Assembly (NCBI GenBank): GCA_019084485.1
Contig: JAHRFU010000039.1
Coordinates: 1-34,508, forward strand
DNA from: Desulforudis sp.
GTDB lineage: Bacteria; Bacillota; Desulfotomaculia; Desulfotomaculales; Desulforudaceae
Direction: 5' to 3'
Length of the DNA stretch: 34,508 bases
The notes under the pieces were generated by a model. The model was not told the DNA's origin and made no database searches. It saw only the letters and a list, made by a program, of their open reading frames with translations. This document shows, piece after piece, positions 11,118 to 22,226 of this stretch; position 1 is the first letter of the stretch; every line of letters begins with the position of its first letter. The position numbers and the translations under genes are program-made.

Positions 11118-11558
11118 ATGGAGAAAAAAGGTTTTGAACCCAAGATTATCGCATTTCTGTGTAACTGGTGTAGTTACGGGGGAGCCGACCTCGCTGGTGT
11201 TTCCAGGCTCCAGTATCCACCTAACGTTAGAATTGTGCGCGTAATGTGCTCCGGCCGTGTGGACCCGACGTTCGTATTCAAGGCTCTAAGTGACGGTGCT
11301 GACGGTGTTATGGTCGCTGGTTGACACCCGGGTGACTGTCACTATGTTAGTGGCAATTACAAGACGATGCGCCGCTTCAACCTCATGTCCACAGTCCTTG
11401 GACAACTTGGCGTAGAGAAAGAAAGAGTTCGCCTAGAGTGGGTGTCCGCGGCAGAAGGTACCGTATTCGCTAAGATCATCCACGATTTCACTGCTGACCT
11501 TAAGCGGCTTGGCCCCTTTAAGTGCAAATGCCGGGCAGCAGCCGGGGGGGAGGGTTAA
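11118..11558 (+). CDS. mvhD: MvhD/VhuD-type hydrogenase iron-sulfur subunit, selenoprotein
   Basis: The frame is interrupted by TGA at 11322-11324, but the same frame continues to a stop at 11558 with uninterrupted family-like sequence. With TGA read as selenocysteine the protein has 146 residues, the usual MvhD length. Residues 67-75 read A-G-U-H-P-G-D-C-H, exactly where MvhD has A-G-C-H-P-G-D-C-H and where VhuD of selenium-using methanogens has Sec. Other cysteines (C15, C18, C44, C74) fit the cluster ligands. ATG 11118 follows AAGAAGGGGCGGG. MvhD hands electrons from the hydrogenase to HdrA in electron-bifurcating Mvh-Hdr complexes. The frame is open 39 codons further upstream, but without family sequence. 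Confidence 0.88.
11322..11355 (+). promoter_or_regulatory. Selenocysteine TGA and bacterial SECIS hairpin in mvhD
   Basis: TGA at 11322-11324 is followed after 12 bases by TGTCACT (11337-11343), which pairs with AGTGGCA (11349-11355; one G-T pair). The loop is ATGTT, carrying the G expected at the apex. Spacing and size fit a SelB-type bacterial SECIS element inside the coding sequence. Confidence 0.7.
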
Positions 11559-11561
11559 CAT

Positions 11562-12515
11562 ATGAGTAAGCTTAAATTAGCCTCCTACTGGGGCTCAGCC
11601 TGTGGCGGTTGTGACGTAGCCATCCTCGACATCCACGAGAAGATTGTGGATCTCGCGAACGCGGCCGATATCGTGTTCTGGCCGATCGCTGTCGACTTTA
11701 AATACAGTGACCTCGAGGCTTACGAAGACGGTTACATCGACGTCTGCCTCTTCCACGGTGCGGTTCGTAACTCGGAAAACGAACACATCGCGAAACTCCT
11801 TCGCCAGAAGTCCAAGGTAATGGTCGCCTTCGGTGCCTGTGCGATCACCGGTGGTATCCCCGGTCTGGCGAACTTCAAGAAGAAAGAAGACATTTTTGCG
11901 CGGGCTTACTTCGACACCCCCTCCACACAGAACAAGGGGAAGGTCCTGCCGACGACGGTGCTGCAAATGCCCGAAGGTGAAATCGATATCCCTGAGTTCT
12001 ACAAAGACGTTAAATGCTTGGCCGACGTGATCGACGTCGAGTTCTATATGCCTGGCTGCCCGCCCACTTCCGAGCAGATCTGGAACGTGGTGCTGGCGAT
12101 TGTGACCGGTCAGTTGCCGCCGGTGGGTTCGTTCGTCGGCTGTGAAGACCGGGCGCTCTGCAACACCTGTGGTCGGACCAAGACCGATAAGAAGGTCAAG
12201 AAGTTCTACCGGCCGCATGAAATCCTTGTTGATCCCGATTCTTGCTTGCTGGAACAGGGCTTGGTCTGCATGGGACCGGTCACTCGGGCCGGCTGCGGCA
12301 ATCAGTGTACCGGTGCCAACACACCCTGTAGCGGCTGCTACGGCCCCCTGTCAGGTGTAGTTGATGTCGGTGCTAAGTTCATCGGTGCATTGGCCTCCGT
12401 CGTTGATACCGATTCGCCGGAGGAGGCGGACAAGATCATCAGCGACGTACTCGACCCGGCGGGCACGTTCTACCGTTATGCTTTACCGGGCTCGCTGTTA
12501 AGGAGGGCTAAATAA
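11562..12515 (+). CDS. mvhG: MvhG-type hydrogenase small subunit
   Basis: This is the 317-residue electron-transfer subunit of a group 3c [NiFe] hydrogenase. The proximal cluster ligands are visible as G-S-A-C-G-G-C-D (C14, C17), with G-A-C-A-I-T-G-G near residue 95 and P-G-C-P-P near 168. The C-terminal half has further cysteine groups (C-N-T-C-G, G-C-G-N-Q-C, T-P-C-S-G-C) for medial and distal [4Fe-4S] clusters. There is no twin-arginine signal, so the enzyme is cytoplasmic, as expected for Mvh. ATG 11562 follows GGAGGG, 3 bases after the mvhD stop. The codon bias (C-ending codons) matches mvhA, suggesting high expression. Confidence 0.93.
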   Translation: MSKLKLASYWGSACGGCDVAILDIHEKIVDLANAADIVFWPIAVDFKYSDLEAYEDGYIDVCLFHGAVRNSENEHIAKLLRQKSKVMVAFGACAITGGIPGLANFKKKEDIFARAYFDTPSTQNKGKVLPTTVLQMPEGEIDIPEFYKDVKCLADVIDVEFYMPGCPPTSEQIWNVVLAIVTGQLPPVGSFVGCEDRALCNTCGRTKTDKKVKKFYRPHEILVDPDSCLLEQGLVCMGPVTRAGCGNQCTGANTPCSGCYGPLSGVVDVGAKFIGALASVVDTDSPEEADKIISDVLDPAGTFYRYALPGSLLRRAK

Positions 12516-12517
12516 GC

Positions 12518-13987
12518 ATGAGAAAAATCACCATTGATCCGATCACCAGGCTGGAAGGTCACGGTAAGATCAACATCTTCCTGAATGACGCCGGCGGGGT
12601 CGAGAACGTATACTTCGCAATTCCAGAGCTACGCGGCTTTGAGAAGTTCTGCGAAGGCCGTCCGGCCGACCAGGTCCCACAGATCGTAAGCCGCATCTGC
12701 GGCGTCTGACCGGCTGCACATCATTTGGCCTCGGGTAAGGCCATAGACATGGTTTACGGAGCAGATCCTACGCTTACTGCGAAAAAGCTCCGCGAGCTGT
12801 ATTATTCAGCTCACATGATTCACAGCCACATCGCGCACTTCTACGCCCTCGCGGCACCGGACTTCGTGATGGGCCCGGATGCTGACCCGTCAGTTCGTAA
12901 CATCCTGGGCGTGATCGGCAAGGTCGGTCTGGAGATCGGCGGCGAAGTTATCAAGCACCGCGCGTACGGCCAGAAGATCCAGGCGATGATGGGCGGCAAG
13001 GCCACCCACCCCGCGTGGACTAAGCCGGGCGGCGTGTCCAAGGGCCTCACCGAAGAGGAGCGCAAAGAGGTCGAGGAAATGGCGAAGTCCTGCGTGGCCT
13101 TCAGCCAGTTCTCCCTGAAGCTCTTTGAAGATGTCGTACTCAAGAATAAGGCCTATGTGGACCTGATCCTGAGCGACGGCTACAAGCTGGTCACCAACTA
13201 TATGGGTATGGTTGACGAGAACAACAAGATCAACTTCTACGATGGCAAGGTGCGCGTTGTGGATACCGAGGGCAAGGAACTCTTCAAGTATGGCCCGCGT
13301 GAGTATCTGGACCACGTGGCCGAGCATGTGGAGCCCCACAGTTACCTGAAGTTCCCGTATCTCAAGAAGTATGGCTGGACCGGTCTTGTGGAAGGCCCCG
13401 GCACCGGCATCTACCAGGCCGCCCCGCTAGCCCGTCTGAACGCCTCCGAAGGCATGGCCACCCCGCTGGCGCAGGAAGCTTACGAGAAGTTCTTTGCAAC
13501 TCTCGGCGGCAAGCCTGTTCACCACGTCCTGGCCTCGCACTGGGCACGGCTGGTTGAGCTCCTGTACGCGTCCGAGCGTCTACTCGAGTTGGCGCAGGAT
13601 CCGCAGGTCACCGAGCCAGATATCCTGAACATCCCGACCGATGTTCCGAAGGAAGGCGTGGGCATCCTCGAGGCACCGCGCGGCACCCTGACGCACCACT
13701 ACATCACCAACGAGCGTGGCATCGTCACTGCGGCGAACATGATCGTCGGTACCACCAACAACAACGGCCCGATCACCATGGCCATCAAGAAGTCGGCAAT
13801 GGCGATCATCAAGCCGGGTATGGAGATCTCGAACGGCCTCTTGAACATGGTCGAGATGGCCTTCCGCTCCTACGACCCGTGCTTCAGCTGCGCGACTCAC
13901 GCCATCCTGGGCGAACTTCCGCTCCAGATCAGCGTCTACGACGCCGAAGGCGACTTGGTCAAGCAGATGCAGAGAGAGCTTACCTAA
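12518..13987 (+). CDS. mvhA: MvhA-type [NiFe(Se)] hydrogenase large subunit with selenocysteine in the L1 motif
   Basis: The frame begins at ATG 12518 (AAGGAGG upstream) and meets TGA at 12707-12709, then continues in the same frame to 13987, giving 489 residues. Around the TGA the protein reads R59-I-C61-G-V-U64-P-A-A-H68, i.e. the L1 metal-binding motif R-x-C-G-x-C-x-x-x-H with the second cysteine replaced. The C-terminal L2 motif is ordinary: D-P-C455-F-S-C458-A-T-H461. In [NiFe] hydrogenases the second L1 Cys bridges Ni and Fe. Known NiFeSe enzymes have Sec at the first L2 position instead. A 28-residue tail after H461 should be removed by the maturation endopeptidase encoded at 15079. 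The TTG at 12725 is an internal codon, not a start. Confidence 0.9.
12707..12743 (+). promoter_or_regulatory. Selenocysteine TGA and candidate SECIS hairpin in mvhA
   Basis: TGA at 12707-12709 is followed by TGGCC (12726-12730) and GGCCA (12739-12743), enclosing the loop TCGGGTAA, which offers apical G residues. The stem is short (5 bases, 6 with T-A closure in the loop), but its distance from the TGA is in the range used by bacterial SECIS elements. Confidence 0.55.
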
Positions 13988-14190: not shown

Positions 14191-14328
14191 GTGATTTGTA
14201 GAAATAATGATATTATTGGAAATATGGAAGCCTGGGGACGAATGGATTTGACCGCCTAATGGCAGTTTAGGCGAGTTAGAATAGAGAGAAATGCGGGATT
14301 GTTCATTATCGGTGGGGGAGGGATGTCG

Positions 14329-14994
14329 ATGCCGCGGATTACCCGGGGGCTGGTCGACGGGATGACATACCACGTGCTGAACCGTGGAAACGGTAAACAG
14401 CGGGTCTTTTATGAGGAAGCGGACTATGTCGCTTTTCTCGGCTTGGTGAGTGAGGCCCAAGAACGTGAGGATATCGGGATTTTGGCCTATTGTCTGATGC
14501 CCAATCACTTTCATTTGGTGGTAACACCGGCGGAAGCCGACGGGCTGAGCCGCTGGATGCAATGGCTGATGACCAGTCACGTCCGGCGCTACCACCAGCA
14601 CTATGATTCCAGTGGGCACGTGTGGCAGGGGCGGTACAAGAGCTTTATAATTCAGGATGGGCTTCATCTGCTTACCGTCCTCAGGTATGTGGAGGGAAAC
14701 CCGGTTCGCGCGAGCATGGTGCGCTCCGCCCGGGACTGGTGGTGGTCATCGCACCGGGAGCGGCTTGACCTGCGGCAAGGGGCGCTGGTATCTGTTCCGC
14801 CTATTGAATTGCCGAAGAACTGGGGTCAATTCGTGGATCAACCGCTGACCGATGGCGAGTTGGGTGGAGTTCGCCGGAGTGTGATCCGGCAGTCCCCCTA
14901 CGGGGAATCTGATTGGCGGATGGCCAAGGCGAAGGAACTGGGGCTGGAATCCACGGTTCGGCCCGTAGGACGCCCCCGAAAAAATTCGGACTAG
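14329..14994 (+). CDS. REP-associated tyrosine transposase (RAYT, Y1/IS200-like)
   Basis: ATG 14329, 6 bases after GGGGGAGGG, starts M-P-R-I-T-R-G; an ATG at 14323 lies too close to the site. The protein of about 221 residues has the Y1 transposase features. These are H-V-L-N-R-G-N near residues 15-21, the HUH motif in M-P-N-H-F-H-L-V-V near 58-66, the presumed catalytic tyrosine in H-V-R-R-Y-H-Q-H-Y near 90, W-Q-G-R-Y-K-S near 102, and Y-V-E-G-N-P-V-R-A. The C-terminal G-R-P-R-K is typical of RAYTs. These enzymes cut and move single-stranded palindromic REP sequences in cis-like fashion and are usually single copy beside their repeats. The neighbouring repeats probably are its substrates. 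Confidence 0.9.
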   Translation: MPRITRGLVDGMTYHVLNRGNGKQRVFYEEADYVAFLGLVSEAQEREDIGILAYCLMPNHFHLVVTPAEADGLSRWMQWLMTSHVRRYHQHYDSSGHVWQGRYKSFIIQDGLHLLTVLRYVEGNPVRASMVRSARDWWWSSHRERLDLRQGALVSVPPIELPKNWGQFVDQPLTDGELGGVRRSVIRQSPYGESDWRMAKAKELGLESTVRPVGRPRKNSD

Positions 14995-15078: not shown

Positions 15079-15663
15079 TTGGACGACCGGCAAGGAAGGT
15101 TGCGCATTGTGGTACTGGGGTGCGGGAATATCTTCGCGGGTGACGATGGTGTCGGTATCGAGGTGTTGCGTGCACTCGAGCAGGATGAACTGATCAGCCG
15201 TCTGGTTGCGGATTCCCGGGATCCGGGATCAACGGAATCTGCGGCGGGCGGCTCTGAGCACACAACCGGACGCGTCATTTCCGTGAGCCTGCTTGAGGCG
15301 GGAGCGCCGGGACTTGGCATGCTGGACCACATGATTGACTTCGACAAAGCTGTTATAATAGATGCGGTGGCGGGTATCGGCGAGCCGGGTCGGATTGTGC
15401 GCTGGCACGAGGATGAGATTCCACGCAAGAACGCGCCTCCGGTGTCGGTACACGACATCAGCATCCGCGATGCCCTGGAGTTCGGACGAAGGTCCGTCCC
15501 CGAACTATTGCCATCGGAAGTGGTGATCATCGGGGTGGTGGTTGCCCAAATGGAGGCCTGGCATATGGGGCTGACACCCGAGGTGGTGGAGGCGGTCCCC
15601 AAGGCGGCCCAGGCGGTAAAATCGGAGATCGAACGCTGGATTAGTGAGGCGGGCAGGGTATAA
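15079..15663 (+). CDS. Hydrogenase maturation endopeptidase (HyaD/HycI family)
   Basis: This 194-residue protease-like protein carries G-C-G-N-x-F-A-G-D-D-G-V-G near residues 14-26, V-I-I-D-A-V near 92 and V-H-D-I-S near 125, the family's nickel/metal-binding acid and histidine positions. TTG 15079 follows GGGGGTAGG and is the best start seen. It is longer than usual (~150-165): residues 50-70 hold a Gly/Ser/Glu-rich insert between the first two core strands. These enzymes cut the C-terminal tail of the hydrogenase large subunit after nickel insertion; MvhA here has such a 28-residue tail after its last L2 histidine. It lies between the mvh operon and hypA, fitting this role. Confidence 0.85.
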   Translation: MDDRQGRLRIVVLGCGNIFAGDDGVGIEVLRALEQDELISRLVADSRDPGSTESAAGGSEHTTGRVISVSLLEAGAPGLGMLDHMIDFDKAVIIDAVAGIGEPGRIVRWHEDEIPRKNAPPVSVHDISIRDALEFGRRSVPELLPSEVVIIGVVVAQMEAWHMGLTPEVVEAVPKAAQAVKSEIERWISEAGRV

Positions 15664-15790: not shown

Positions 15791-16204
15791 ATGCACGAGA
15801 TTGGGTTGATGACTTCGGTGATGGAACAGATCACGGAGTCGGCCCGGGAGAATGGTATTGAGCGGATTACTAAGGTGAAGCTGGTCCTGGGGAAGATGAA
15901 CGGGGCTTTGCCGGACGCTTTGGAGTTCGCTTGGGAGATTATGACGCCGGAGAGCATCTTTGTGGGTGCGGCGCTGGAGATCGAGCAGGTGGACATCGTG
16001 GTGGAGTGCCCGAAGTGCGGGGCCGAGTCCGCCGTTGGTGAGATTGCTTACTTCTGTCCCGAGTGCGGCGCACGCGCGACTGTGAAGAAGGGACAGGAAT
16101 TTTATATCGATTTCTACGAGGGTGACGAAAGGAAGGAAGATACCGTTGAAGGTAGTGATGGCGCAGAGGATTCTGCGGGCCAACGACCAGGTCGCGAGGG
16201 ATAA
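15791..16204 (+). CDS. hypA: HypA hydrogenase nickel chaperone
   Basis: The protein starts M-H-E-I-G, with His2 and Glu3 forming the nickel site. It has a zinc site of two C-P-x-C pairs (C-P-K-C near residue 75, C-P-E-C near 94). ATG 15791 follows TAAGGATGA. HypA passes Ni(II) to the large subunit together with HypB. Family members end near residue 115, after the F-Y-I-D-F-Y stretch found here at about 106-111. This frame runs on to 137 residues, with the extra ~20 read in a different frame through the beginning of hypB. The extension looks like overlap read-through rather than a functional domain. Confidence 0.93.
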   Translation: MHEIGLMTSVMEQITESARENGIERITKVKLVLGKMNGALPDALEFAWEIMTPESIFVGAALEIEQVDIVVECPKCGAESAVGEIAYFCPECGARATVKKGQEFYIDFYEGDERKEDTVEGSDGAEDSAGQRPGREG

Positions 16205-16796
16205 TCGTGAGCGCCTGCAGGGGCTGACCACCGTGAACCTGATCAGTTCGCCGGGGGCGGGGAAGACTACACTCCTGGAGAAGACCATCGCCGCCCTGAA
16301 GGGTGAAGTGGTGATCAGCGTCGTGGAAGGGGATATCTACACCACCCGTGACGCCGAGCGCATCGCCGGACAGGGAGCGGACGTGGTGCAGATCAATACC
16401 GAGGGGCTCTGCCACCTGGATGCGAATATGGTCGGGCGGGCACTGGATCAGTTGGACCTGGCCGCTACCGACCTGGTGGTCATCGAGAACGTGGGGAACC
16501 TGGTCTGCCCGGCGGAGTTCGACCTGGGCGAGGACTACAAGGTGGCCGTGTTGAGCGTGACCGAGGGCGGGGACAAGCCAGCGAAGTATCCGTTGGTGTT
16601 CCGTCAGTCCCACGCCGCAGTGATCAACAAGAGCGACCTGATCCCATATACAGACTTTAACCTGGAAACCGTGACCGAGGAGATCATGACGATCAATCCG
16701 GACCTCGAAATATTCGTCATCTCCGCCCGCACGGGCGAGGGACTGGAAAAGTGGTGCGCATGGCTCAGAGACCGGGTGCGCGAAAAGAAAAGCTAG
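16146..16796 (+). CDS. hypB: HypB GTPase for nickel insertion
   Basis: TTG 16146, about 8 bases after AAGGAAGG, gives a start M-K-V-V-M-A-Q-R-I-L that fits short HypB proteins; a GTG at 16122 in the same frame is an alternative. GTPase motifs are clear: Walker A S-S-P-G-A-G-K-T-T, V-V-E-G-D-I near residue 58, and N-K-S-D-L. Metal-binding positions are visible as G-L-C-H-L-D and N-L-V-C-P-A-E-F-D. There is no His-rich nickel-storage N-terminus. About 216 residues. HypB works with HypA to load nickel in the hydrogenase large subunit. The gene overlaps hypA by ~59 bases and hypF by ~46, so translation is probably coupled. Confidence 0.93.
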   Translation: MKVVMAQRILRANDQVARDNRERLQGLTTVNLISSPGAGKTTLLEKTIAALKGEVVISVVEGDIYTTRDAERIAGQGADVVQINTEGLCHLDANMVGRALDQLDLAATDLVVIENVGNLVCPAEFDLGEDYKVAVLSVTEGGDKPAKYPLVFRQSHAAVINKSDLIPYTDFNLETVTEEIMTINPDLEIFVISARTGEGLEKWCAWLRDRVREKKS

Positions 16797-19081
16797 CGAA
16801 CAGGCTTCACTACCGGATCACCATCAAGGGCACCGTGCAGGGGGTGGGATTCCGCCCATTCGTCTATAATCAGGCTTTGGCGCACGGGCTGACCGGCAGC
16901 GTCCTGAACGCGGGCCGCGGGGTAGTGATCGAAGCCGAGGGCGAGGCGGAGGCCGTGGAGGGTTTCACCCGGGTGATGCGGGACGAGCCGCCGCGCCTGG
17001 CGTGGATTGATTCTTTTACCGCCGAGGAGTTGCCCCTGGAGGGCTATACCTCATTTGAGATCATCGTCAGCGCCGGCGGGGACGATATTGAAGCCCTGGT
17101 GCCGCCGGACGTAGGGCTTTGCCCGGACTGTGCGCGGGAGACCTTTGACCCTGCCGACCGGCATTTCGGCTATCCCTTTACGAACTGTACGAACTGCGGG
17201 CCGCGCTTCACCATGGTACGCGACCTGCCTTATGACCGGCCGAAGACCTCGATGGCCGTTTTCCCGATGTGCCGGGACTGTGCGCGGGAGTACCGGGATC
17301 CGCTGGACCGCCGTTTCCACGCCCAGCCGGTGGCCTGCCCGGTCTGCGGGCCGTCCGTGGAATTTAACGATGCCGAGGGTCGGGCGGTGGAGGGTGAATG
17401 GCGCAGCCTGTGCTGGGATGCCCTCGGTCAGGGCCGGATCCTGGCTCTGAAGAGCCTGGGCGGTTTCCACCTGGTTTGCGATGCGCGCCACGTGAAGGCG
17501 CTGAACACCTTACGTCGCCGCAAGGGCCGGAATGCCAAACCCTTTGCGGTGATGTGCCGTGATTTGGAGGTTGTGAAGCGGTACTGCCTGGTCGACGAGG
17601 CGGAAGCAGAACTGCTGTGCTCGCCCCAGGCGCCGATTGTGGTGTTGCGGCAGCGGCCGGATTGCGACCTGCCGGTGGAATTGGCCCCGGGGCTGAAGTC
17701 CCTGGGGGTGATGCTACCCTACACGCCTCTGCACCACTTGCTCTTCGGCGGACAATTCGATATCCTGGTGATGACCAGCGGCAACTACAGCGAGCTGCCC
17801 TTGGCCAAGGAGAACGCTGACGCCCTGAGTGAGCTAGCCGGGATTGCGGATTTCTACCTCTGGCACAACCGCGAGATCCTGAACCGGGCCGACGACTCGC
17901 TGGCCGCGGTGGTGGACGGGGACGTTCTGCTGTACCGGCGTTCGCGCGGCTACGTGCCTTCGCCGGTAAAGGTGCCGTTCGAGGCCGACCGGGTGGTACT
18001 CGGGATTGGCGGCGAAATGAAGAATACCTTCTGTCTCCTGAAGCAGGATAAAGCGTTTGTCAGTCAACACGTGGGCGAACTGGACAGCGTGGAGGGGGAG
18101 GACAACCTCTTCTCCAGCCTCGTCGGCTTCCAACGCCTGCTGGGGATCGAGGTCGAGGTCGTGGGCTACGACCTGCATCCGGACTACCGTTCCTCGCGCT
18201 TGGCGGGGAAGGTTCCGGCGTTGGGCCGCTACCCGGTACAGCACCACCACGCCCACCTGGTTTCCTGCCTGGCGGATAACGGGGTGGAGGAGCGGGCGAT
18301 CGGGGTGATCCTGGATGGCACCGGATACGGCGGGGACGGGACGCTCTGGGGGTTTGAGGTTCTGACCGGGGACTACACTACGTTTAAGCGGGAGTATCAC
18401 CTGGGCTACGTTCCGCTACCCGGCGGTGAGCAGGCGGTGCGGAACCCCTGGCGCACGGCGGTGTCCTACCTGCACACCTACCTGGGTGCGGAGGCCGGGG
18501 CGCGGGAGGCCGAGCGGCTCTTCGGAGACACCGGCCCAGAACTGGCCATCGTGCAGCGTCTACTGGAGAGGGACTTCAACTGCCCGCCCAGTTCAGGTTG
18601 CGGGCGCCTGTTTGACGCTGTCTCGGCCCTGTTGGGGGTTTGCCGGCGATCGGGTTACGAGGGGCAGGCCGCGATTGAGCTCGGTGAGCTGGTCCTGGAT
18701 CCGGACGAGGGTGCCGCAGTGGGGGCCTACCCGTTCGCTATCGACGATCAGGTGATTTCCGCGGCAGGGATTGTCCGCGGCGTCCTGGAAGACCTGGATA
18801 ATGCAGAATCCCGGGAGATCATTGCCACCAGATTTCATAACACGATTGTGCAGATTATCCTGGAGTGCGTCCGGCGGGTGTCCGGGGTCACCGGGCTCCG
18901 GACCGTCGCGCTGAGTGGCGGCTCCTGGCAAAATAGATACCTGTTTGCGAGCGCCAAGAAGGTACTGCCCGAAGCGGGCTACCGCCTGTTGTACCACCGG
19001 AATGTTCCGGCGAACGACGGGGGGCTCTGTCTGGGGCAGGCCGTGATAGCTTATCGGAGGTGGAGAGAGGAATGTGTGTAG
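16751..19081 (+). CDS. hypF: HypF carbamoyltransferase
   Basis: This 776-residue protein shows the full HypF layout. An acylphosphatase-like domain (G-T-V-Q-G-V-G-F-R-P-F near residues 27-37) is followed by two zinc-finger blocks (C-P-D-C..C-T-N-C-G and C-R-D-C..C-P-V-C-G, about 120-200), then a YrdC-like domain (K-S-L-G-G-F-H near 236, T-S-G-N-Y near 343). A Kae1-like domain ends it (H-H-H-A-H near 500, D-G-T-G-Y-G-G-D-G near 525, S-G-G-S-W-Q-N near 722). It makes thiocarbamate on HypE Cys from carbamoyl phosphate, the source of the CN ligands. GTG 16751 has GAGGG 9 bases upstream; ATG 16760 is an alternative. It overlaps the hypB end and the hypC start. Confidence 0.95.
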   Translation: MVRMAQRPGARKEKLANRLHYRITIKGTVQGVGFRPFVYNQALAHGLTGSVLNAGRGVVIEAEGEAEAVEGFTRVMRDEPPRLAWIDSFTAEELPLEGYTSFEIIVSAGGDDIEALVPPDVGLCPDCARETFDPADRHFGYPFTNCTNCGPRFTMVRDLPYDRPKTSMAVFPMCRDCAREYRDPLDRRFHAQPVACPVCGPSVEFNDAEGRAVEGEWRSLCWDALGQGRILALKSLGGFHLVCDARHVKALNTLRRRKGRNAKPFAVMCRDLEVVKRYCLVDEAEAELLCSPQAPIVVLRQRPDCDLPVELAPGLKSLGVMLPYTPLHHLLFGGQFDILVMTSGNYSELPLAKENADALSELAGIADFYLWHNREILNRADDSLAAVVDGDVLLYRRSRGYVPSPVKVPFEADRVVLGIGGEMKNTFCLLKQDKAFVSQHVGELDSVEGEDNLFSSLVGFQRLLGIEVEVVGYDLHPDYRSSRLAGKVPALGRYPVQHHHAHLVSCLADNGVEERAIGVILDGTGYGGDGTLWGFEVLTGDYTTFKREYHLGYVPLPGGEQAVRNPWRTAVSYLHTYLGAEAGAREAERLFGDTGPELAIVQRLLERDFNCPPSSGCGRLFDAVSALLGVCRRSGYEGQAAIELGELVLDPDEGAAVGAYPFAIDDQVISAAGIVRGVLEDLDNAESREIIATRFHNTIVQIILECVRRVSGVTGLRTVALSGGSWQNRYLFASAKKVLPEAGYRLLYHRNVPANDGGLCLGQAVIAYRRWREECV

Positions 19082-19314
19082 CCGTTCCTGGAAAAGTGAT
19101 TGAAGTGAATCCAGCAGACAACACCTGTATCGTCGAGGTCTTCGGAGTGACTCGCCGCATCAACACGATCATGGTCGGTGAGGTCGAGCTAGGCGAGTAT
19201 CTGATCGCCCACACCGGGTTCGCCATCGAGAAACTGGATCTGGAAGAGGCGATGATCCGACTGAAGCTGTGGGAGGAGATTTTGAGCTATGCAGATCCTG
19301 GACAGGTTTCGTGA
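19072..19314 (+). CDS. hypC: HypC hydrogenase assembly chaperone
   Basis: This 80-residue protein begins M-C-V-A-V-P-G-K-V. The exposed Cys2 is essential in the family, which fixes the start at ATG 19072 and excludes the in-frame GTG 12 bases upstream. GGAGGTGGAGAGAGG precedes the start. HypC binds the Fe(CN)2CO intermediate together with HypD and delivers it to the large subunit. It overlaps the end of hypF by 10 bases and hypD by 26, part of a tightly packed hypABFCDE series. Confidence 0.95.
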   Translation: MCVAVPGKVIEVNPADNTCIVEVFGVTRRINTIMVGEVELGEYLIAHTGFAIEKLDLEEAMIRLKLWEEILSYADPGQVS

Positions 19315-20401
19315 CCCCGTAGTTGGCCGGGCACTCCTCGTCAAGGTAACCGAACAGGCCAAAGAGGTCGCAGAACGCCTGGGCCGCCGATCGGTGTTTA
19401 TGGAGGTCTGCGGCACCCACACGGTGGCCATCTCCAAGGCCGGACTGAGAAGCCTCCTGAGCGAATATATCGACCTGCGCAGCGGTCCGGGCTGTCCGGT
19501 TTGTGTAACCGACTACGGTGACATCGACCGCATGGTGGCCTTCGCCCGGACCCCGGGGGTGACCCTGGGCACCTTCGGCGATATGATTCGCGTCCCAGGC
19601 AGTTTTGCCTCGTTGGAGAAGGAGATGGCGGCCGGAGCCGACGTCCGCATTTTCTATTCACCGGCTGATGCCGTGGAATACGCGCGTACTCATCCGGATC
19701 GGCACGTGGTGTTTCTGGGGGTCGGGTTTGAGACTACGGCGCCCGGTATTGCGCTGAGCATTCTGCAGGCGAAGGCGCAGGGGGTCACGAACTTCAGCGT
19801 GCTTACCTCGCACAAGCTGGTGCCGCCGGCGATGCATGCGATCCTGGCCGATCCGGAACTGAGGCTGGACGGCTTCATCCTGCCGGGCCACGCCACCGCG
19901 ATCGTGGGGCGCAACGCCTTCCAGTTCGTGGCCGACCAGTACAACCTGCCGGCGGTGGTCACCGGCTTTGAGACGACGGACATCCTGGACTGCCTGCACA
20001 ACCTGCTGGATCAGCTGTTCCAAGGTCAGGTGCGGGTGGACAACGGCTACTCTAGAGTGGTTAAAGATGAAGGTAACGTCCGGGCGCAGGCCCTGATGGA
20101 GCAGTTGTTTGAGGTGGCGGATGTTTCCTGGCGTGGGTTCGGGGTGATCCCAGCGAGCGGCATGGTCATCCGGCCGGAGTTCGCGGACTTTAACGCCGAG
20201 AAGCGCTTCACCGTGAATATTCCGGAGCCGCGCATCCCGAAGGGCTGCCGCTGCGGCGACCTCCTGAAGGGGAAGATCAACCCGCACGAGTGCCGCCTGT
20301 TCGGCACCGCCTGCACCCCGGTCAACCCGATCGGCCCCTGCATGGTCTCATCCGAAGGCGCCTGCGCGGCATACTACCAATACGACCGCCGGGGGCAGTA
20401 G
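19289..20401 (+). CDS. hypD: HypD iron-sulfur scaffold for Fe(CN)2CO assembly
   Basis: This 370-residue protein has all HypD hallmarks: M-E-V-C-G-T-H-T near residue 36-43, G-P-G-C-P-V-C-V-T near 66-74, and G-F-E-T-T-A-P-G near 147. A C-terminal cysteine-rich region for its [4Fe-4S] cluster runs from C-R-C-G-D near 326 to G-P-C-M-V-S and G-A-C near the end. ATG 19289 follows GGGAGGAG inside the hypC frame. HypD with HypC holds the iron while HypE donates cyanide. No lost residue was seen. Confidence 0.95.
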   Translation: MQILDRFRDPVVGRALLVKVTEQAKEVAERLGRRSVFMEVCGTHTVAISKAGLRSLLSEYIDLRSGPGCPVCVTDYGDIDRMVAFARTPGVTLGTFGDMIRVPGSFASLEKEMAAGADVRIFYSPADAVEYARTHPDRHVVFLGVGFETTAPGIALSILQAKAQGVTNFSVLTSHKLVPPAMHAILADPELRLDGFILPGHATAIVGRNAFQFVADQYNLPAVVTGFETTDILDCLHNLLDQLFQGQVRVDNGYSRVVKDEGNVRAQALMEQLFEVADVSWRGFGVIPASGMVIRPEFADFNAEKRFTVNIPEPRIPKGCRCGDLLKGKINPHECRLFGTACTPVNPIGPCMVSSEGACAAYYQYDRRGQ

Positions 20402-20442
20402 TCAGAGTGAGAACCCAAGGGAGACCCCAAAGGAGAGATAAG

Positions 20443-21450
20443 ATGGCTTCTGACATTATTCTGTTGGCGCACGGTGACGGGGGGAAGTTGACCCACGACC
20501 TGGTCACCGAACTTTTTATGAAACACCTCGGTAACGGCCTGTTGGAGGGGCTGACCGATGCGGCGACCTTTAAGGTGGGCGAGGGGCGAATGGCTTTGAC
20601 CACGGATTCCTTCGTAATCGACCCGCCGTTTTTTCCGGGCGGGGATATCGGGAAGCTGGCGGTGTGCGGCACGGTCAACGACCTGGCCGTGAGCGGGGCG
20701 GTGCCGCGCTACCTGACGGCGGGTTTCCTGATTGAAGAGGGGCTGCCCATGGCCGACCTGGAGCGGGTGGTTGCTTCGATGGCCGAGACCTGCCGCGAGG
20801 CGGGAGTGCAGGTTGTGGCCGGAGACACCAAGGTGGTGCCGCGCGGCGGACTGGACCGGATTTTTATTAATACAACTGGCTTTGGTCTGATCCCGGACGG
20901 GGTGGACTTGGGCTACCACCGGATTGCGCCGGGTGACATGGTGCTGGTGAACGGGAATATGGGTGACCACGGGATGGCGGTGCTGACCGCGCGCGAGGGT
21001 TTCGGGTTTGAACAGCCGATCCTGAGCGACTGCGCGCCGTTGCACGAGATTACCGGTTTGCTGGCGGAGAAGCTGTCCGGGGTGAAGCTGATGCGGGACC
21101 TGACCCGCGGCGGCCTGGCCACTTCGACCAAGGAGATAGCGTCTTCGGCGGTCTGCGACATCTGGCTGGAGGAAGCCGCGATCCCGGTTGATCCGGTGGT
21201 GAAGGGAGCCTCGGAGATGCTCGGCGTGGATCCCTTCTATATGGCCAATGAGGGTAAGTTCCTGGCTATTGTGGCCCCGGAACAGGCTGACGAGGCACTC
21301 CGCATGATGCGGGAGCACCGCTACGGGCGTAACGCGCGGGTGGTCGGTGAAGTGCGCACCGGTAAGGGCGACTGCTACCTGAAGACGGCGCTGGGCGGAA
21401 CCAAGTACCTGGATATGCTGGCCGGAGCACCGTTGCCGCGGATATGCTAG
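20443..21450 (+). CDS. hypE: HypE, carbamoyl-dehydratase for cyanide ligand formation
   Basis: The frame is open from 20290, but ATG 20443 with AAAGGAGA just upstream gives the family start (I-I-L-L-A-H-G-D-G-G). The 335-residue protein ends P-R-I-C, the conserved C-terminal cysteine that is carbamoylated by HypF and then dehydrated to thiocyanate with ATP. The PurM-like ATP-binding fold is visible: T-D-S-F-V-I near 46, G-D-I-G-K-L-A-V-C-G-T-V-N-D near 62-75, and G-D-T-K-V-V near 121. The lack of selenophosphate synthetase motifs rules out SelD, a relative. Last gene of the hyp set; a terminator follows. Confidence 0.95.
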   Translation: MASDIILLAHGDGGKLTHDLVTELFMKHLGNGLLEGLTDAATFKVGEGRMALTTDSFVIDPPFFPGGDIGKLAVCGTVNDLAVSGAVPRYLTAGFLIEEGLPMADLERVVASMAETCREAGVQVVAGDTKVVPRGGLDRIFINTTGFGLIPDGVDLGYHRIAPGDMVLVNGNMGDHGMAVLTAREGFGFEQPILSDCAPLHEITGLLAEKLSGVKLMRDLTRGGLATSTKEIASSAVCDIWLEEAAIPVDPVVKGASEMLGVDPFYMANEGKFLAIVAPEQADEALRMMREHRYGRNARVVGEVRTGKGDCYLKTALGGTKYLDMLAGAPLPRIC

Positions 21451-22137: not shown

Positions 22138-22226
22138 CTCTGGTAGCCAGGCCGTCTTATCGGTTGAACGACTTAGACCCTCAGCTTTGCGCCCCTGCCT
22201 TTCGACAGGTTTGCCCTTCAAGACGC
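22136..22226 (-). ncRNA. Cyclic di-GMP-I (GEMM-I) riboswitch
   Basis: Read on the minus strand, the conserved GEMM-I blocks occur in order and spacing. GGCAAACC (22215-22208) is followed by a P2 hairpin with the C-G-A-A-A-G tetraloop (CCTGTCGAAAGGCAGG), then GCGCAAAGC (22192-22184), GGGTCTAA (22180-22173) and finally ACGGCC..GGCTACC, closing P3 and the P1 region. P2 and its flanks align base for base in length with the Vibrio cholerae Vc2 aptamer as I remember it. A P1 stem GTCTT/GAGAC is possible, ending at 22136 where it overlaps arm 1 of the expression platform. TACAAT near 22243-22238 could be the -10 box. Confidence 0.88.

Follow-up and report, generated by a model that had tools for sequence, protein, structure and literature searches.

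An apparently undescribed variant of [NiFeSe] hydrogenases, with selenocysteine predicted at the second L1 cysteine, in Desulforudis and other bacteria

Does a natural [NiFe] hydrogenase carry selenocysteine (Sec) at a ligand of the Ni-Fe centre other than the terminal L2 ligand of the known selenium enzymes? The question is raised by an mvhA-like gene for a hydrogenase large subunit (positions 12518 to 13987, plus strand) in a 34,508-nucleotide stretch of Desulforudis sp. DNA, the whole of contig JAHRFU010000039.1 (assembly GCA_019084485.1), referred to here as the window. The gene starts with an ATG at 12518, with the sequence AAGGAGG 11 nt 5′ of it; codon 64 is TGA, the sole in-frame stop before the TAA at 13985–13987, which gives a product of 489 residues with Sec as residue 64. 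The TGA (12707–12709, plus strand) lies exactly where the original prediction placed it, at the codon where an MvhA-type (group 3c) subunit normally has its second L1 cysteine, and the alignment with the MvhA structure 5ODC pairs it with that cysteine. The L1 motif reads R-I-C-G-V-U-P-A-A-H-H. The predicted 425 open codons past the TGA are also borne out; they contain an ordinary L2 motif, D-P-C-F-S-C-A-T-H, in which both Cys455 and Cys458 (13880–13891, plus strand) are encoded as cysteine. The first L1 cysteine, Cys61 (TGC, 12698–12700, plus strand), is a putative terminal Ni ligand. All four positions (61, 64, 455 and 458) are invariant, as Cys or Sec, across 43 homologues.

The product matches PF00374 with 139 bits, against a gathering score of 25.8. 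The nearest solved structure by sequence is MvhA of Methanothermococcus thermolithotrophicus (5ODC, E 4e-119), a group 3c (MvhA/VhuA) enzyme that is 44% identical over the fold and has the same L1/L2 frame and the same D-G-A operon partners, but has Cys at the second L1 position. An AlphaFold2 model (mean pLDDT 90.8) finds 5odc_F as its best Foldseek match, with TM scores of 0.87/0.95, and also matches the known [NiFeSe] enzymes in fold. The best match in both sequence and fold, together with the gene order mvhD-mvhG-mvhA, places the protein in group 3c. Against the NCBIfam VhuA equivalog model (NF041785) it scores 412.5 bits, below the curated cut-off of 800; the product is MvhA-like, not an archaeal VhuA equivalog.

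The TGA is shared by relatives. It occurs at exactly this codon in 13 of the 13 closest orthologues, and in 14 of 14 genes when the window's own is counted; these come from 14 genomes across the order, found among 60 relatives, are 71–100% identical, and up to L2 contain no further internal stop. Just below them in identity (68–70%), the genes have TGC at the second L1 cysteine. A scan for the pattern RICG(V/I)U-P-x-x-H over 84,980 species (GTDB-wide) gave 70 matches, comprising 57 hydrogenase large subunits and 13 chance matches in unrelated, non-hydrogenase frames. TGA-interrupted homologues, which the original prediction proposed to look for, are therefore numerous. The 57 hydrogenases, from more than 10 phyla, consist of 40 MvhA-like proteins (Bacillota, Chloroflexota, Nitrospirota, Acidobacteriota, Krumholzibacteriota, Latescibacterota, Zixiibacteriota, Coatesiibacteriota, Cloacimonadota, Fidelibacterota, Thermodesulfobacteriota and KSB1) and 17 group-1-like proteins (Bacillota, Nitrospirota, Chloroflexota and Actinomycetota). 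One L1-Sec MvhA, from Cloacimonas (L096), has a frame that is broken before L2, by sequencing error or decay.

A bacterial SECIS hairpin, U-GGCC-U / CGGGUA / A-GGCC-A, is identified by comparison at 12726–12743 (plus strand). It begins about 17 nt past the UGA, with the apical G about 24 nt past it, which is the usual range for bacterial SECIS elements. Folding of this single sequence is not unusually stable (z about 0), and an Rfam scan of the window reports no SECIS family at the hairpin, its sole match being a c-di-GMP-I riboswitch aptamer at 22139–22225 on the minus strand. Since folding alone gave no significance, comparative tests based on synonymous sites and compensatory pairs were used, in place of bSECISearch. 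In 28 non-redundant Sec genes, compared with 16 Cys genes and with expectations taken from each gene's own codon use, Ser70 is TCG in 21 of 24 genes (5.2 expected), Gly71 is GGT in 14 of 15 (3.2 expected) and Ala73 is GCC in 21 of 27 (11.4 expected); the 16 Cys genes have no such bias at these three codons. Likewise, stem cells are paired in 99.5% of cases in 36 Sec genes, with two compensated pairs, and in 64% in 35 Cys homologues. The plausible hairpin of the original prediction is thus an RNA conserved in the Sec genes and not in the Cys genes.

RNAalifold found no consensus structure when all Sec genes were pooled, because the lineages differ in the register of the stem; splitting by lineage resolved the consensus, and the Nitrospirota and the Coatesiibacteriota/Zixiibacteriota lineages have hairpins in other registers. 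One Cys gene (L155) retains the Sec hairpin (L155:2707–2769, minus strand), which is likely to be the fossil SECIS of a recent Sec-to-Cys change.

The genome has the machinery for selenocysteine insertion. selA and selB adjoin on one contig (C54), and selD (L126, contig C44) has one in-frame TGA and probably encodes a Sec-containing SelD. A search for tRNA-Sec gave three matches above the cut-off, at which ARAGORN called one tRNA-Sec, one tRNA-Ser and, at the third, nothing; selA, selB, selC and selD, all of which the original prediction wished to see checked, are hence present. A sample of 20 L1-Sec genomes covering several phyla gave a selA match in 18, and the lack of a match in the other two may be due to genome incompleteness. 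The genomes with the Cys orthologues L036 and L037 have selA too, so that the Sec machinery alone does not predict Sec at L1. Taken as a whole, mvhA has the sequence features by which bacterial selenoproteins are predicted: a TGA aligned to the Cys of homologues, a downstream hairpin conserved as RNA, and the four sel genes in the genome.

The neighbouring genes are those of a hydrogenase operon. Upstream lie mvhD (11118–11558, plus strand), coding for a delta subunit of the FlpD type (PF02662), and mvhG (11562–12515, plus strand; PF01058, and 213 bits with the VhuG model), coding for the small subunit, which transfers electrons through FeS clusters. As stated in the original prediction, mvhD is also a selenoprotein gene; its in-frame TGA (11322–11324, plus strand) stands in the motif AGUHPGDCHY, and GUHPGDCHY occurs in relatives too. 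The MvhD family is a known Sec family (PF02662, CxxU; PMC13188914); MvhD/VhuD, although a partner in the same operon, is a small electron-transfer subunit and not the Ni-Fe subunit. The two genes switch between Sec and Cys independently, as one locus (L132) pairs a Cys-type MvhA with a Sec-containing MvhD and four others (L032–L035) pair a Sec MvhA with a Cys MvhD. Downstream are a HycI-type maturation protease (15079–15663, plus strand; PF01750), a candidate for cutting the C-terminal tail after CATH461, and the cofactor assembly genes hypA, hypB, hypF, hypC, hypD and hypE (15791–21450, plus strand), named by reading their translations. An IS200-like (Y1_Tnp) transposase gene (14299–14994) is located between mvhA and the protease, with the repeat 'tatccacaataagggacaggctac' immediately upstream of it. 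No hdrA-like gene was seen among the ORFs of the window, which were read by eye.

In the [NiFe] hydrogenases of known structure, each pair consists of a terminal ligand (the first Cys) and a ligand shared by Ni and Fe (the second). The equivalence of residue 64 to the second L1 Cys therefore suggests that Sec64 would bridge the two metals. Of the four Cys ligands of the [NiFe] centre, two are bridging and two terminal (PMC9961374). In the proposed mechanism, SelB with Sec-tRNA would read UGA-64 as Sec, directed by the hairpin, as the comparative evidence indicates. The mature MvhADG complex would hold its Ni-Fe(CN)2CO centre by Cys61, Sec64, Cys455 and Cys458, and alignment and fold point to Sec64 as the L1 ligand between Ni and Fe, giving one bridging selenolate. 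The complex probably oxidises H2, and MvhG and MvhD, itself with Sec, would relay the electrons to an Hdr-type partner. Speculatively, Sec64 would most likely help the enzyme to recover from oxidative damage, or tune its Ni-Fe pair for work at very low H2; it could also have a role in cofactor loading. We regard this explanation as a whole, with mvhA a selenoprotein gene and Sec64 bridging in MvhADG, as very probable; Sec at codon 64 is supported by comparison of genes, and its bridging role is predicted.

The alternative that fares best accepts that Sec is inserted, and places its main role in maturation or in selenium-dependent expression (as a ligand for Ni/Fe loading, or with the UGA as a checkpoint) rather than in catalysis or resistance to oxidants. 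UGA-containing genes can respond to the selenium supply, as such a role would have it. In another hydrogenase, changing the natural L2 Sec to Cys is reported to lower Ni incorporation (PMC9961374). However, the repeated retention of Sec at an active-site ligand agrees no less well with a chemical role, and control of expression alone leaves unexplained why Sec always takes this one Cys. We consider a maturation or expression role possible and rather unlikely as the main one.

Insertion of Sec at codon 64 was itself weighed against three readings of the TGA. A ribosome that mostly stops at UGA-64 could be followed by a downstream start, such as that of the TTG-initiated ORF beginning at 12725, to give a truncated protein without L1; however, such a product would miss two of the four metal ligands, and the UGA is retained in many lineages. 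Moreover, in a comparison with a genus-mate (MvhA 92% identical), residues 1–63, upstream of the TGA, are equally constrained (dN 0.021, dN/dS about 0.05) as the part downstream of it (dN 0.048, dS 0.54, dN/dS about 0.09). Low ratios on either side of the TGA indicate that both halves of mvhA are selected as protein, and truncation is very improbable.

With only one genome at hand, a sole in-frame stop would by default be put down to pseudogene decay by nonsense mutation or to a sequencing error, and the original prediction named a TGA private to a decayed copy as the case against itself. The codon is instead shared with the 57 hydrogenases of the scan and is present in isolate genomes (for MvhA, Desulfoscipio geothermicus DSM 3669 and Desulfotruncus alcoholivorax DSM 16058; for the group-1 type, Syntrophomonas wolfei subsp. 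methylbutyratica), and the constraint downstream of it and the conservation of the hairpin also speak against decay; the conservation of the TGA rules this reading out for practical purposes. Equally negligible is a genome-wide reassignment of TGA to a standard residue, which several genes with in-frame TGAs (mvhA, mvhD, selD and a group-1 large subunit) could suggest, but which is ruled out by the use of TGA as the ordinary stop of 5 of the 26 other window genes, by the placing of the in-frame TGAs at Sec/Cys sites, and by the presence of tRNA-Sec.

The group-1 large subunit is a second L1-Sec hydrogenase of the same genome (L002, contig C64, about 37.8–39.2 kb), with RICGVU-PISH in L1 and an all-Cys L2, DPCLAC; the gene upstream encodes a small subunit bearing a twin-arginine signal. 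The solved structures closest to this large subunit are those of the periplasmic HysA enzymes, of the [NiFeSe] type, and since these have Sec in L2, related enzymes bear selenium at different ligands. Another locus of this genome (L005, contig C98, about 5.5–5.9 kb) has an ORF that opens like a ferredoxin and continues as the C-terminal portion of a hydrogenase large subunit lacking L1; it may be a fusion, a deletion or an assembly join.

The distribution of L1 Sec was examined on a quick tree of 133 MvhA-like proteins, built after masking of the Sec column. The L1-Sec label changes 10 times (gains or losses), all forced by supported branches, and on this quick tree a single L1-Sec clade is rejected with a p-AU of 1e-52. 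Cys reversions (L036/L037 and L155) are nested within Sec clades. The differing hairpin registers of the lineages argue for separate gains, implying, as far as sequences can tell, that L1 Sec was gained repeatedly. Sec-type genes are often found in genomes whose relatives have Cys at this position; the fold can thus form without Sec.

MvhA proteins of the known L2-Sec type (DPUxSC) form one separate clade of 12 in the tree sample, and among the genes seen none has both L1 Sec and L2 Sec. The Thermodesulfobacteriota gave many single-TGA matches, of which 20 were fetched; 11 have the known L2 Sec and 2 have L1 Sec. The remainder had TGAs only at or past the gene end, or none in frame; most of the 20 were thus not the further L1-Sec genes that such matches could have been. 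Two Thermodesulfobacteriota genes (L219 and L220) of a divergent MvhA-like subfamily have L1 Sec in the motif TICGVU, without the usual L1 arginine, together with an L2 of DLCFAC and a hairpin.

The known [NiFeSe] hydrogenases with L2 Sec (HysA; VhuU/FrhA; Thermodesulfobacteriota MvhA) likewise have Sec in place of one of the four Ni-ligand cysteines. In these, it is the first Cys of L2 that is replaced (DPUxxC), a terminal Ni ligand, whereas the Desulforudis MvhA has DPCFSC in L2 and its Sec in L1; it thus falls outside the current definition of a [NiFeSe] hydrogenase, which has Sec as the first Cys of L2 (UxxC). The original prediction knew of no characterised enzyme with Sec at the L1 position. 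This apparently stands for natural enzymes, but every Ni-coordinating cysteine of E. coli Hyd-1/Hyd-2 has been changed to Sec, one at a time, by engineering (Evans et al. 2021, 2024; reported in PMC13111528). These variants include the equivalent L1 position, but they are laboratory-made group 1 enzymes.

A 2026 review of 119 prokaryotic selenoprotein families and subfamilies gives UxxC (L2) for both hydrogenase alpha subunits and has no L1 entry (PMC13188914). In the genome paper of Desulfobacterium autotrophicum, MvhA2DG is called selenocysteine-containing, but it is the D subunits that are named among the selenoproteins (PMC2702500). Neither RICGVU nor a "bridging selenocysteine" was found in the literature searched, which does not fully exclude an earlier mention of the position. 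On comparative evidence, the L1-Sec hydrogenase is a real, widespread and apparently undescribed variant of the [NiFeSe] hydrogenases. We hold with good confidence that the bridging L1 Sec would be a second natural design of selenium hydrogenase, of repeated origin in at least two groups and more than 10 phyla, seen in no gene together with L2 Sec, and overlooked since annotation cuts the genes at UGA.

Genome surveys probably count too few [NiFe] hydrogenases, because ordinary ORF calling splits the L1-Sec genes at UGA and the NCBIfam models tested score below their cut-offs. Selenium in hydrogenases has so far been viewed through the terminal L2 ligand, where it is tied to proton transfer and oxygen tolerance; if the bridging position has been chosen repeatedly by evolution, selenium would help there too, for another reason. 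Natural L1-Sec enzymes would let bioinorganic chemists separate the roles of the bridging and the terminal chalcogen. The carriers are anaerobes at the energy limit, such as the deep-subsurface Desulforudis, Desulfopertinax, Dehalococcoidia and Syntrophomonas. Selenium hydrogenases thus seem to exist in nature in more than one form.
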